A stretch of DNA of 64,000 nt from Terriglobia bacterium (GTDB lineage: Bacteria > Acidobacteriota > Terriglobia > Bryobacterales > Bryobacteraceae). The notes beneath the pieces were generated by a model. It was given only the letters and a program-made list of their open reading frames with translations. It was not told where the DNA came from and ran no database searches. Numbering within the stretch: the first letter of the stretch is position 1; each line of letters starts with the position of its first letter. Shown piece after piece: positions 5,168 through 44,523 of the stretch. Made by a program: the position numbers and the translations under genes. The DNA lies in assembly GCA_003175985.1 (NCBI GenBank), contig PSRJ01000372.1, positions 1 to 64,000 of the forward strand, written 5' to 3'.

Positions 5168-8100
5168 GATTCGGTTCGCCACTCTGAAACTCCGGCTGTT
5201 CCTGCGGCGGCGCTTTGGGCCCGAAACGGTAGTAGGCTGCGGGCACCACCACCATGTTCAACGCAGTCGAGGTCAGGAGCCCGAAGAAGATGACGATCGC
5301 CATAGGCGCCTGGATCTCGCTGCCGGGCTTGCCCATTCCCAAAGCGATCGGTACCAGGGCTAAGCCCGCGGCGAGCGCCGTCATCAGGATGGGCGCCACA
5401 CGCTCGGAAGCGCCTTGCATCACGGCCGCGCGCAGGTCGAAGACTTCCTCCCGGTACAGAGTTCGAATGTGCGAGATCATCATAATGCCGTTGCGCGTTG
5501 CGATGCCGAATAGCGTGATGAATCCGACGATGGAAGCCAGAGACAGCACTCCTCCGGCGAGAAATACTCCGGCGACCCCGCCAACCAAGGCCAGTGGCAG
5601 ATTCAGCATGATAATGAGCGCGTCTTTATAAGACGAAAAGGCGCTGCCCAGGATCACAAATATACAAACAATGACGCCGATCCCCAAAAGGATCAGCCGG
5701 CGGTAGGCCCTTTCGGAGCTTTCGAACTGACCGCCATACTCGATGCGGTACCCTTGCGGCAGCTTCACACTCTCGCCGATACGCCGTTGGATATCCTGCA
5801 CCGTGCCGCGCAAGTCGCGTCCCGCCACATTGCACTGCACCACAATGCGGCGCTGAACGCCTTCCCGCATGATGAAATTCGGGCTGCGGTCTTCTTGAAT
5901 GGCGGCGACGCTCGCCAACGGAATCCGCGGCCCGGCCGGGGTATCGAGCAACATTTCGCGAATGCCGGCCAGGGTATCTTCCGCATCGCCGGGACGGCGC
6001 GGATCCCCATACCGCGCTACCAAGGGAAAATTGACTTGACCTTCGACGACCCTCCCGACCTCCGTCCCCAGCAGCACCGTCTCGATCCGGCTTGCGACCT
6101 CCCCCGCGGGCAGGCCGTAACGCGCGACGCGGGCGGGTTCCGGACGGATGGTCAGCGTCGGAATGTCCGTCTGTTGTTCCATCGCGAGATCCACCACGCC
6201 GGGAACACCCGCCATAGCGGTCTGCGCCTGGCGGCCGAGAGCTCGCAGCGTGCGCAGATCGTCGCCGAAGATCTTGACGGCGATATTGGCGAGCGTGCCC
6301 GAAAGCATATGATCGATGCGGTGGGAGATCGGCTGCCCGAGACTTACGTTAGTGCCCGGCAGCAGGCTGACCTTTTCGCGGATCTCCCCGAGGACCTCGG
6401 CCTTCGTTCGTTTTCCCATCTGGAGATCGACGTCGATTTCGGCGGACTCCACGCTCTGCACGTGCTCATCGAGCTCAGCGCGGCCGGTCCGGCGGGCCGT
6501 GGAAACCACCTCCGGAACCGCCAGCAGGATCTTTTCCAGCGCGGTGCCGAGCTGGTCCGATTCCGCCAGGCTGGTGCCGGGAATGGTCACGGCGCTCACC
6601 GTGAGGCTCCCCTCGTTGAACTCCGGCAGGAACGAGCGCCCCATGCGAGAGACGGCGAAACCAGCGGCAATCAACAGCAGCACCGAGGAGCATAACACCA
6701 GCCACGGATGATCGAGCGAGAAAAAAAGCGAAGGGCGATAAATGCGTTTAAGAATCCGGATCAGCCACGGTTCGCGGCCTCTGAGAATCGATTTCGCCTT
6801 GGGCAGTAAGAGAGAACACAGCGCGGGAGTCACCGTAAGCGCAACCACCAAAGATGCCGTGAGCGCCACAATGTAGGCGAAGCCAAGCGGCCACAACAGC
6901 CGGCCTTCCACGCTTTCGAGCGCGAATAGCGGTAGGAATACCAGGATCACGATAACGGTGGCAAAGACCACCGAACCGCGTATTTCGCGGCTGGCCCGAT
7001 ACACCACTTCCAGCGGACTCCGCCGTTCGGAATCCGGCAGCCCGCTATTTTCCCGGAGCCGCCGTACGACATTTTCGACATCGATGATGGCATCATCCAC
7101 GAGTTCGCCGATTGCAATCGCCAGCCCGCCGAGACTCATCGTGTTGAGCGTGAACCCGAGGTAGCGCATGCCCAGAACCGCTGCCATGAGTGAGATTGGC
7201 AGCGCGATGAGCGTGATCACCGAAGCGCGCAGGTTAGCCAGAAACACAAGCACCACGAGGACAACCAGGAGGGAACCGTCCCGCAGGGCGGCTGCCAGGT
7301 TGTCGAGCGAGCGTTGGATGAAATCGGCTTGGCGGAAGACGTGCCGGTCGATGGTCATGCCCGGCGGCAGCGTGCGCTGGATATCGTCGAGCGTCGCGTC
7401 CAACTGGCGCGTGAGGGCCAGCGTGTTGGCTCCGGGCTGCTTCTGAATCCCCAGGATCACGGCAGGCGAGCCCTTGTGCGACCCCGAGCCGCGCTTCAGC
7501 GCCTCGCCGATCTGGACGCGCGCCACATTGCTCACGAGGATGGGCCGGGCGCCGCGCGACTCCACCACAATGTTGCCGATTTCGTCCTCGTTCGAAACGC
7601 GTCCGAGACCCTGAATGAGATACTCCTGGCCTCCGGTCACGCGGAAACCCGCCGACGAATTGCGGTTGGCGCGGCGCAGCGCGTCCTCCACCTGGCCCAG
7701 CGTCACATTGTGTTCCCGCAACTCGATCGGATCGACCAGCACCTGGTATTGCTTTTGACCGCCGCCCGTCGCGATTACTTGCGAAACGCCGGGAATCGCC
7801 AGCAGACGGCGCCGCAGCACGGTCTCGGCAACTGTGCGTACGTCGAGAGGCGAATGCCGCTCGGATTCCAGAGACACGAACATGATCTCGCCCATGATGG
7901 AGGAGACCGGCGCCAAGAAAGGCGCTTCGACTTCCGGCGGCAGGCTCGAACCGGCCAGAGCCAGCTTTTCCGTCACGATCTGCCGCGCCCGCTGGATGTC
8001 CTGTCCCCAATCGAACTCAACCCAGACCACGGCCAAGCCGACTGCGGTGGCGGACCGCACACGGCGCACCCCCGCAGCGCCGTTCAGTGCCGCTTCGATG

Positions 8101-41019: not shown

Positions 41020-41497
41020 TCCAAATCACTGGATCTCGCCTCGAAAAAGTACCAGCCTACGGCGTACTCCGCTGTGATTTTACGGATGTAACAGCAGTCT
41101 GCTTCGGAGCTCTACGAAACAATATCCTAAAATCCTCGAAGGAAAGGTCTCATGCTGCAGGTCGGAATGCTGTCCCTATGGAACGCGTATGGACCGGTAC
41201 GGCCAATACATAAAGGCTCAGCAAGGTCCAGGAGGTAAGTGGACCGCTGGTTACCCCGAAGAGCACGCGGCCGCCGCGGCGCCCCACCGGCGAACCCAAC
41301 ATCGGAGGCGAATGGGCGCCGGATTCCTGAATACCCCGGTACGCATTAGCGACAAGCTGCATGTGCGATGGGCCACCGGAGACGGCCAACTCACCATGAG
41401 GCCCCTCCCCTGCGATATCGCCAAAGAGGCCGTTCGTAAGGGCCTGAGATCTCGCGGAAGGCACAGAAGAAATAGGCCAAGTGCTATCCAAGCGTTA

Positions 41498-41523
41498 GGT
41501 AGTGTCGCAAGGTTGCGTTGCAT
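41498..41523 (+). repeat. left terminal inverted repeat of the IS1-like element
   Basis: GGTAGTGTCGCAAGGTTGCGTTGCAT; matches reverse complement of 44452-44477. Confidence 0.9.
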
Positions 41524-41788
41524 TTAAGGCAGCCTTCCTCTTCGAGCGAGGGAACGGCTCGGCCTTATAGCGCTGGCGTTGAGCCATTTGGAAACGCCTC
41601 CCCCCTTAGCTTCGATTCCTGGCAAAATTTGATAGCTTTTTGGAGCTTCTTCACTCGTTCCTGCGCCTTCCTAAGCTCAAACGTGGCTTCTGCCTCGATC
41701 TGGTCCCAGGTCCCATACTTATCAATTCTGTCTAATACGCATGGCCGGTATCATTGACTTTATTTTAGGCATTATGTATAATCCTTAA

Positions 41789-42265
41789 ATGGCTGAGGGA
41801 AAAGGAACTTACGTTTATCACAATCCTCATTGGGAGTCCTACAAAAGGGCTGAGGCTGAGGATTTCGGCCTCAGCGCTGAACGGGACCGTCTTCTTATGA
41901 GGCTGGCCTGGATAGACAAGCGGATCGCTCAGCTTCGAGAATGCCAGTCGGCGATCGAAACCCTTCTTCAGGAGGATCCTGGCGAAGTGCTCGCTGGAGC
42001 AGGGCTTACTGAGCTTTGTCGGGAAGCGCTTCGCCGAATGCCTGGAGAGGAGCATACCGCAAGCGACGTACGCCAATCTTTGGAACGGATGGGCATAGAC
42101 ATCAGCGGCTATAGTAATCCGTACGCAGTTTTGCACAAGACCCTGGAACGCATCTGTGAGGTTTCTAGGCATAACATCTTCGGGACTGTTTACACACTCA
42201 GGGATGAAGAAGCAATTACGCAGAAGGATGAGCCAGGAGAGCGAGAGGCTCCCCCGGCTGCTTAA
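41789..42265 (+). CDS. cargo ORF: predicted winged-helix protein
   Basis: GLTELCREALRRMPGEEHTASDVRQSLERMGIDISGYSNPYAVLHKTLERICEVSRHNIFGTVYTLRD has a helix-helix-recognition-wing layout. Confidence 0.7.
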   Translation: MAEGKGTYVYHNPHWESYKRAEAEDFGLSAERDRLLMRLAWIDKRIAQLRECQSAIETLLQEDPGEVLAGAGLTELCREALRRMPGEEHTASDVRQSLERMGIDISGYSNPYAVLHKTLERICEVSRHNIFGTVYTLRDEEAITQKDEPGEREAPPAA

Positions 42266-42274
42266 CAATAATTC

Positions 42275-42306
42275 GCCCTGCTGACGGCTGGAACCGTCAG
42301 CAGGGC
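42275..42306 (+). terminator. strong 13-bp hairpin after the winged-helix ORF (no clear T-tract)
   Basis: GCCCTGCTGACGG-CTGGAA-CCGTCAGCAGGGC, perfect stem. Confidence 0.6.
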
Positions 42307-42391
42307 TCAACCTCAGGCTTGCGCGAGAGGCAGGGTTTGCAGACCCACTGTCATTCTGGCGCTTCTGCCTGGAGAAAGCAAGAAGGCCGGA

Positions 42392-43354
42392 ATGACGTGC
42401 ACCAAGTGCCGTTCTACGGAAACCCGCAGCTACGGCAAGCACCGCAATGGATTGCGCCGCTTTCGTTGTCTGAAGTGCGGTAAGACCTTTACCGAACCAC
42501 ATACTCGACCGCTCGGACCCATGCAGATCGAATTCGAGCGAGCCGTTCTCCCACTTGAAATTCTGCTGGAAGGCGGGAGCATCCGCACCGCCGAAAGAAT
42601 CACTGGCGTGCCGCGCAACACGATTATGAGTTTGCTCCTGGTGGCCGGCGCCAATGCGGAGAAGCTGCTGGGCCGCGCGATCCGCAACGTCCCGGTGACT
42701 GACGTTCAATGCGATGAAATTTGGGGATTCGTTTTCAAGAAACAGGGAAGCAAGCGCGGCGACGAAGAGCGGTTCGCTTACATTGGTGATGCATGGACCT
42801 TTGTCGCCATTGAACGGTACACGAAACTGGTCCTCGCGTTCGAGCTTGGGAAGCGTACCGTCACATCGGCGATGCGCTTCACCGAGAAGTTGGCCACTGC
42901 CACCGATCCCAATCAGCGGTTTCAGTTGACCACCGATGGGCTCAATGCGTACCCGTACGCAATTGGCAACCTGCTTATGGACCGCGTGGACTATGCGCAG
43001 CTCATCAAGATTTACGCTCAAGAGACGCCTGAGAGTATCCGGCGCTATAGCCCGCCGCGCTTGGCTGAAACCAGCGCCACGCCAATCTACGGGGACCCAG
43101 ATGAGAAAAAGATCTGCACATCCCATGTCGAGAGGCAGAACCTGACCATGCGGATGTGCATGCGGCGGCTGACCCGTCTGACGAACGGGTTCAGTAAGAA
43201 GTGGGAGAACCTGAAAGCGGCCCTGGCGCTCCACTTTGCCTACTACAATTTCTGCCGCAGACACCGGACGCTGAAGACGACGCCCGCCGTTGCTGCCGGT
43301 CTGACGGATCGGCCCTGGACGCTTCGCGAATTGCTCCTGGAGGCCGCTGCGTGA
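42392..43354 (+). CDS. IS1-family transposase (zinc-ribbon plus DDE in one ORF)
   Basis: MTCTKCRSTETRSYGKHRNGLRRFRCLKCGKTFTE; CDEIWGFV; DGLNAYPYA; HVERQNLTMRMCMRRLTRLTNGFSKK. Confidence 0.9.
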   Translation: MTCTKCRSTETRSYGKHRNGLRRFRCLKCGKTFTEPHTRPLGPMQIEFERAVLPLEILLEGGSIRTAERITGVPRNTIMSLLLVAGANAEKLLGRAIRNVPVTDVQCDEIWGFVFKKQGSKRGDEERFAYIGDAWTFVAIERYTKLVLAFELGKRTVTSAMRFTEKLATATDPNQRFQLTTDGLNAYPYAIGNLLMDRVDYAQLIKIYAQETPESIRRYSPPRLAETSATPIYGDPDEKKICTSHVERQNLTMRMCMRRLTRLTNGFSKKWENLKAALALHFAYYNFCRRHRTLKTTPAVAAGLTDRPWTLRELLLEAAA

Positions 43355-43396
43355 TTCTATGGCAACCCTGTCTTGAACGGCCCCCACCAGGAACGA

Positions 43397-43429
43397 GAGC
43401 CCAGCCCGAAACGGCTGGGCTCTTTTATT
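43397..43429 (+). terminator. intrinsic terminator after the transposase
   Basis: GAGCCCAGCC-CGAAAC-GGCTGGGCTC-TTTTATT. Confidence 0.8.
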
Positions 43430-43452
43430 GGGCACGGAGCTACAATTCGCCA

Positions 43453-44346
43453 ATGCAGACCCGAATACTATTGCTGTGCTTTCTATCCGTGATCGCATGG
43501 TCACAGCCCCCACAGAGTCCAGAACGTCCACCAGTGACCGAAGAGCAGCGCGCTATAAGCGCACGCAGCAAAGAAGCCACCAAGGGCGACGCCAGAAAGG
43601 CCCAAAATCCAGCGCCGCCTGTCCAAGACCATCAACCAACCGAAGCTGGCAAAGATAGTCCCCAAGGCGAATCCAAGGACGACCTGGAGGTAAACAGGCG
43701 GCTCGCGGAGTACACGAAATGGCTGGTGATCGTGGGCATCATTCAATTTCTGGCCCTGGTTGCTCAGGCGGCCATATTCGTGAAGACCTTGAAAGATAAC
43801 CGAAGGGCAATAGAGGATACCCACCGCTCTCTGATCCTGACGCAACGTCCCCAACTGACCGTAAGAACCCTCAGCGTGACTGAGCCTAGCCCCAACGAGC
43901 GATTCATTGCGCTGAAGGCGTCGGAGGAAATATTTAAGCCGAACGCTGCGGTCAACGGCACTCTGTCGGTGGTAAACCGAGGGAATTCCAGAGCGACGAT
44001 ACAAACCACATACTGTCGCGTTATCCACTCTGGCCCACCGAACATGTTGCCTAAAGAATTCCTTGCGGAGGCCCTTGGCGGACACTCCCTGGGAATAGAT
44101 CGCAAAACATTGGAACCCGGACAACAAATCACAGGAGCGTTTAGTGGAACGGGCCCAACCCTGGAACAAGTCCAGCACGCCTCGATCCCCGGCAAGGGCC
44201 GAGTGCTTCACCACTACGTCCTCGGATGGATCGATTATGCGGACGAACTCGGCTTGGTCCGCCGGACGTCTTTTTGCCGCCTCTACAGGAGCAACATTGA
44301 CGGCTTCGTCAAGATCGAAGACCCCGATTACGAGTACGCCGACTAG
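43453..44346 (+). CDS. cargo ORF: secreted/membrane-anchored hypothetical protein
   Basis: MQTRILLLCFLSVIAWSQPPQ signal-like N-terminus; TM WLVIVGIIQFLALVAQAAIFV; beta-rich C-terminus. Confidence 0.65.
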   Translation: MQTRILLLCFLSVIAWSQPPQSPERPPVTEEQRAISARSKEATKGDARKAQNPAPPVQDHQPTEAGKDSPQGESKDDLEVNRRLAEYTKWLVIVGIIQFLALVAQAAIFVKTLKDNRRAIEDTHRSLILTQRPQLTVRTLSVTEPSPNERFIALKASEEIFKPNAAVNGTLSVVNRGNSRATIQTTYCRVIHSGPPNMLPKEFLAEALGGHSLGIDRKTLEPGQQITGAFSGTGPTLEQVQHASIPGKGRVLHHYVLGWIDYADELGLVRRTSFCRLYRSNIDGFVKIEDPDYEYAD

Positions 44347-44451
44347 CGCCAGTCTGCTATTCAGCAGCATGCTCACCAAGTCCCCTGGTTTGCGGCGCTA
44401 CAATATTGCAGGCATTGGGCTTGGGCGTGTCGCTCACCCCGCTGCATAAAT

Positions 44452-44477
44452 ATGCAACGTAACTTTGCGACACTACC
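44452..44477 (-). repeat. right terminal inverted repeat of the IS1-like element
   Basis: Reverse complement GGTAGTGTCGCAAAGTTACGTTGCAT. Confidence 0.9.
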
Positions 44478-44523
44478 AAGCGTTAGGTATAGTATAATCA
44501 TTCATAGGAACGAATAATTAGTC

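Follow-up and report, generated by a model that had tools for sequence, protein, structure and literature searches.

The window analyzed here, a stretch of 64,000 nucleotides of contig PSRJ01000372.1 from a Terriglobia bacterium (Acidobacteriota, Bryobacteraceae), contains an element of 2980 bp at positions 41498-44477, with three genes (ORF1, a transposase and ORF3) on the + strand. Its features and the evidence used for each are as follows.

41490-41497, no strand: left copy of the target duplication, 8 bp, AAGCGTTA (sequence read, end-finding rule)
41498-41523, +: left terminal inverted repeat, 26 bp, GGTAGTGTCGCAAGGTTGCGTTGCAT (sequence read; consensus ends of 61 related elements)
41754-41782, +: sigma-70-like promoter TTGACT-17-TATAAT, a consensus match only (11 of 12 positions)
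41789-42265, +: ORF1, 158 aa, helix at 15-61 and C-terminal winged-helix domain, putative DNA-binding regulator (ORF list, AlphaFold, profile search)
42271-42408, +: conserved structured leader RNA, about 135 nt (alignment, covariance model, folding)
42275-42306, +: leader hairpin 1, stem of 13-14 bp
42311-42330, +: leader hairpin 2
42333-42346, +: leader hairpin 3
42349-42397, +: leader start-codon hairpin, pairing the transposase start codon (42392-42394)
42392-43354, +: IS1-type DDE transposase, single ORF, 320 aa (Pfam, NCBIfam, alignment of relatives)
43403-43428, +: intrinsic-terminator-like hairpin 3' of the transposase (hairpin 43403-43421, then CTTTTATT)
43453-44346, +: ORF3, 297 aa, signal-like helix, one transmembrane helix and beta-sandwich (ORF list, homologues, structure model)
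44452-44477, -: right terminal inverted repeat, 26 bp (its reverse complement is GGTAGTGTCGCAAAGTTACGTTGCAT)
44478-44485, no strand: right copy of the target duplication, 8 bp, AAGCGTTA (exact match to the left copy)

The terminal inverted repeats, GGTAGTGTCGCAAGGTTGCGTTGCAT and GGTAGTGTCGCAAAGTTACGTTGCAT, are identical at 24 of 26 positions, and both tips of the element read GGTAGTG. Near-copy inverted ends and an exact 8-bp flanking duplication had been reported in the first-pass annotation, and both were reproduced, the duplication at 41490-41497 and 44478-44485. The single-ORF IS1-type transposase that it placed between two ORFs was likewise recovered (42392-43354, flanked by ORF1 and ORF3), as was a hairpin in each gene gap (42275-42306 and 43403-43421); the point it missed is that the hairpin between ORF1 and the transposase is the first of the four hairpins of the leader.

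The putative promoter ends 6 bp ahead of the start of ORF1, and the predicted transcript would be nearly leaderless. The AlphaFold model of ORF1 (mean pLDDT 83.7) consists of a long N-terminal helix and a winged-helix domain, for which forkhead and Fur winged helices came out as the closest folds, with weak E-values; no significant match to ORF1 was found in Pfam, NCBIfam or PHROGs. In the model of ORF3 (pLDDT 72.6), an N-terminal signal-like helix is followed by a disordered stretch, a transmembrane helix at about 88-110 and a C-terminal beta-sandwich. An ORF of similar size lies over ORF3 on the opposite strand (43501-44379); the protein homologues, which are about 280 aa long and have in common a C-terminal motif around GWIDY...FCR...DPDYEYAD, belong to the + strand ORF3. 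Nothing significant was found for ORF3 in Pfam, NCBIfam or PHROGs, and the fold search gave generic beta-sandwich matches alone, which are insufficient for assigning a function. ORF3 is a gene without a known domain that lies within the ends and recurs in relatives.

The element is present as a single copy in its own 7.4-Mb draft genome, in which a search for further copies gave nothing beyond a decayed transposase (G000:C114). This broken relative, at about 6955-7852 of that contig (L032, L251), has a tRNA-Ser(ACT) and a strong leader match (115 bits) beside the broken transposase. The insertion sits just upstream of the argC promoter region (window 44486-44523), at the equivalent of which relatives keep TATAnT and a ATTCATAGnAACGAATAA-like motif that resembles an ARG box by eye. 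Across the genus, argC and its promoter region are kept and the left flank of the insertion is variable. An empty site was sought in the genus and no joined site was recovered; because the left flank is not conserved there, none can be demonstrated. Given the single copy and the lack of an empty site, recent movement is at most a possibility, and this was counted against the best explanation.

Related elements and their cargo

A related DNA match was found in 57 of the 237 genomes of the family, nearly always within the transposase gene. When genomes were scanned with a profile built from 20 transposases, 335 related loci were obtained, and 80 of the 335 transposase relatives, mostly from Acidobacteriota, were kept. 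Both sides of 161 transposase copies were searched for GG...CC ends with a terminal match of at least 16/24 and an exact duplication of 8 or 9 bp. Such ends were found for 74 copies, corresponding to 61 distinct elements with GGTAGTG-type ends and 8/9-bp duplications, whereas none of 803 control pairings, in which the left flank of one locus was combined with the right flank of another, gave ends. Position 6 of these ends is T in 121 of 122 cases and position 7 is G in 111 of 122; GG was demanded by the rule, and these two positions were free.

The bounded elements range from 1188 to 6267 bp (median, 3368 bp), the shortest being a remnant with a truncated transposase. Extra DNA is present in all 61, and no minimal element of about 1 kb with a full transposase was found among them. 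Because the 61 were taken from the best-matching loci, they do not represent a census. Several elements of the group lie on contigs classed as viral (L159, L160, L162 and others from IMG/VR), for which travel by phage and mis-binned host DNA are both possible. An element of the group is also present in a cultured species, Acidipila rosea (L092). By a literature search, we could not find a description of IS1-type cargo elements of Acidobacteria.

The first-pass annotation proposed a search for other elements with the same ends and cargo and different duplications, and two were found, which are divergent relatives and not copies: L046 (3126 bp, duplication TTCGTTAG) and L162 (2970 bp, duplication CTCGGGTT), both bounded and both with the order ORF1-transposase-ORF3. 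The ORF3 profile placed this family immediately 3' of the transposase in four bounded elements (L001, L046, L074 and L162) and in L104. As ORF1 is present as well in L046 and L162, the order of the three genes is found in elements with three different duplications, and the element in the window is a bounded IS1-type element with recurrent ORF1 and ORF3.

The profile of ORF1, built from seven members, gave 17 matches (about 13 distinct) in the examined loci, six distinct ones being outside the seed. All of them lie 123-338 nt upstream of a transposase on the same strand, with none on the opposite strand in these loci. Because all profile matches precede transposases, ORF1 appears tied to these elements, although homologues without a nearby IS1 transposase exist in other genomes. 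The earlier idea of a winged-helix protein gained support from the confident structure model and from this fixed place, and ORF1 is likely to be a coiled-coil winged-helix DNA-binding protein that regulates the element.

The cargo varies between most elements and often includes restriction-modification or toxin-antitoxin-like genes. Among the 116 cargo ORFs with a length of 130 aa or more, the leading Pfam families are HTH_3 (10), Peptidase_M78 (7) and DNA methylase (4), followed by SocA/Panacea antitoxin (3), Mrr_cat (3) and AbiEii-type AAA (2). These counts are approximate because the ORF caller picks shadow ORFs in places (for example, for ORF3). In the control, 116 ORFs from the DNA flanking the elements, the matches were to families of housekeeping genes (for example, radical SAM, aminotransferases, IF3 and ribosomal protein S2). 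A single-chain DNA methylase and an Mrr-type nuclease are among the cargo of L070, L085 and L117, and the PADLOC matches, some of which may reflect the generic models that it includes, comprise RmrA, capP/capH, PD-Lambda-2 and type II methyltransferases. The family names suggest that the cargo may serve in defence.

A classic short IS1-like element that captured, or was trapped beside, unrelated host genes can also be considered, with ORF1 and ORF3 as random passengers and the hairpins as ordinary read-through terminators. Cargo that differs among most elements fits such an origin, as do the homologues of ORF1 and ORF3 outside such elements; the hairpin at 42275-42306 has a terminator-like score as well, though for the minus strand. 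We regard this origin as improbable, because ORF1-transposase-ORF3 stands in three elements with different duplications, the ORF1 profile matches in the examined loci lie only upstream of transposases, the leader consists of four covarying hairpins ending at the start codon, and a minimal element of about 1 kb with a full transposase is missing among the 61.

The leader RNA and accessory genes

Relatives conserve the DNA directly 5' of the transposase. Eleven leaders, aligned without fitting to the structure, fold into the four hairpins, and 14 of 32 pairs have changed on both sides and yet are kept. The covariance model made from this alignment was used for a scan of 1.03 Mb in 100 loci, where nearly all strong matches, and most weaker ones, abut transposase start codons. 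In the 237 whole genomes most matches were again at transposases; the others adjoin truncated or missing transposases and look, from inspection, like remnants. In five loci (L239, L240, L241, L243 and L248), which are apparent remnants, the leader exists without an intact transposase, often beside what by eye are HTH-Xre and RelE-like pairs.

In an alignment of 37 leaders (A8), which was fitted to the leader structure model, 90.7% of the cells pair and 30 of the 32 pairs have two-sided changes. The cells with two-sided changes number 162, against a mean of 37 in shuffled alignments (0 of 500 shuffles), and sliding the partner strand abolishes the covariation signal. In the element of the window, the leader folds with -73.7 kcal/mol (z-score, -5.6). 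No family matching the leader was found in Rfam. The start codon thus lies, as the covariation shows, in the last stem of a conserved four-hairpin leader, and because of this the transposase should rarely be translated unless the stem is opened; the leader would accordingly be expected to lower transposase translation.

Hairpins of DNA and of RNA cannot be told apart by covariation alone, and DNA binding is likely both for ORF1 and for the small proteins encoded near the ends of relatives. The upstream hairpins may be pictured as acting in DNA, as a protein site, a cruciform or an internal recombination site, and not as a translation-control RNA. The structure, however, stops on the start codon of the mRNA, which its last stem pairs, and tolerates G-U pairs. 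We regard this possibility, too, as improbable, and a leader RNA acting on translation is the reading preferred here.

With ARAGORN, 17 of 108 distinct transposase copies were found to have a tRNA or tRNA-like gene in the 500 nt upstream; the 18 genes all share the strand of the transposase, and only 1 of 534 control windows contained such a gene. Many of them stop 3-9 nt short of the leader, several have an encoded CCA, and the anticodons are unusual, including TTA, CTA and some that look mismatched with the tRNA body. Examples of these genes, and of a small protein described below, are as follows.

L037 9152-9229, transposase strand: tRNA or tRNA-like gene
L063 5219-5313, transposase strand: tRNA or tRNA-like gene
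L090 1929-2003, transposase strand: tRNA or tRNA-like gene
L119 5802-5875, transposase strand: tRNA or tRNA-like gene
L120 5808-5878, transposase strand: tRNA or tRNA-like gene
L134 5787-5872, transposase strand: tRNA or tRNA-like gene
L137 5783-5870, transposase strand: tRNA or tRNA-like gene
L066 3706-4002: small protein of about 99 aa
L085 4835-5131: small protein of about 99 aa

When mapped onto a tree of the transposases, the leader requires 17 changes (41 rows) and the presence of a tRNA 18 changes (18 rows), so that tRNAs are gained and lost repeatedly. In contrast to the broken copy at G000:C114, the element of PSRJ01000372.1 possesses the leader and ORF1 without a tRNA upstream of its transposase. 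A T-box, a reading prompted by the adjacent tRNAs, was dropped, as no T-box sequence was recognized by eye and Rfam gave no match.

In 15 of the 61 elements, a small protein of about 99 aa with an AT-hook-like tail (GGRPRK-like) is encoded near one end. Of the 50 genomic elements, one combines this gene with the leader, 14 have the protein only, 17 the leader only and 18 neither, so that the two almost exclude each other (Fisher p = 0.005). In several elements of the small-protein class, the transposase is preceded by a sigma-70-like promoter whose spacer contains an inverted repeat. Taken together, we tentatively suggest that the group may have its own kind of transposase control, in which a start-codon-locking leader is joined, in some members, by a tRNA or tRNA-like gene a few nucleotides upstream, whose processing or promoters could set the 5' end and the supply of the mRNA, and that in Acidobacteriota these small elements might transport genes for phage defence and toxin-antitoxin systems.

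Family assignment and transposase control

The transposase matches Pfam PF03400 (DDE_Tnp_IS1) with 31.8 bits, above the cut-off of 24.1, and NCBIfam NF033558 (transpos_IS1) with 87.3 bits, under the equivalog cut-off of 100. Its catalytic and zinc-ribbon residues are conserved over 20 relatives, with Cys 3, 6, 26 and 29, D108, D182 and E247 invariant. The zinc ribbon and the DDE domain lie in one frame without an insA/insB-style frameshift, as they do in the 20 relatives. A search of solved structures gave no convincing sequence relative of the transposase. The IS1 family is characterized by ends of the consensus GGnnnTG (ISfinder), which GGTAGTG fits, and by a target duplication of 8-9 bp, which is present here as AAGCGTTA on both sides. 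The length of 2980 bp lies outside the roughly 0.7-1.2 kb of classic IS1 elements, and a single 320-aa ORF stands in place of their two ORFs with programmed frameshift. Single-ORF members of the family are known, and the ISMhu11 subgroup (ISfinder) comprises longer elements that can carry extra genes. Assignment to the IS1595 family instead is very improbable, since, although the N-terminal zinc ribbon common to IS1595 and IS1 (NF050000) is matched and passenger-carrying ISs have been described with IS1595 in a reference cited in PMC3129680, the DDE domain is that of PF03400, no IS1595/ISXO2-type DDE domain was matched in Pfam or NCBIfam up to E = 1, and the 7-bp tip fits the IS1 consensus.

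In short, the locus is probably one complete IS1-family cargo transposon, with an IS1-type transposase whose translation is held low via the leader and with ORF1 as its likely regulator. The DDE transposase would recognize the 26-bp ends, and the whole 2980-bp unit, the structure of which is plain, would have been inserted with an 8-bp target duplication. The transposase would be made from a single ORF without the frameshift control of IS1, its mRNA carrying the conserved four-hairpin leader, while ORF1, transcribed from its own promoter, probably fills the regulatory place that InsA has in classic IS1. ORF3, behind the terminator, may be a membrane-anchored beta-sandwich passenger.

Classic IS1 has the DNA-binding regulator InsA, frameshift control and restrained translation of its transposase (PMC12428005). 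The present element resembles classic IS1 (Escherichia coli, 768 bp) in its zinc-ribbon DDE transposase, GGnnnTG-type ends and 8/9-bp duplications and, in the reading preferred here, in a DNA-binding regulator and a restraint on transposase translation, and differs from it in its length (2980 vs 768 bp), single transposase ORF, separate winged-helix ORF1, start-codon leader and passenger ORF3. Transporter ISs, described with the IS1595 family, carry passenger genes unrelated to transposition and stand on the frontier between ISs and transposons (PMC3129680); ORF3 may be a passenger of this sort, and the transposase of the present element matches the domain models of IS1 and not those of IS1595. 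In ISPpu9, IS10 and IS200, folding of the mRNA, small RNAs or both limit the translation of the transposase (PMC8450116); these are different elements, whereas the four-hairpin leader is common to dozens of IS1-type elements. Tn7-like transposons have, in the account given in PMC8649781, cargo rich in defence genes. They are multi-gene targeting transposons, unlike the one-transposase IS1-type elements of 1-6 kb found here.

In the textbook element IS1, a repressor and a frameshift limit the activity. The elements described here form a broad IS1-type group without the frameshift, with a conserved, putative RNA lock on the start codon, a recurrent gene for a likely DNA-binding protein in some members and extra DNA in all of the bounded ones, and the leader recurs in dozens of related, mostly soil-bacterial elements. 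If confirmed, the IS1 family would have a second way of solving the problem of transposase dosage, the leader would be a new RNA family, and restriction-modification and toxin-antitoxin genes of soil bacteria would have a small vehicle in these elements.
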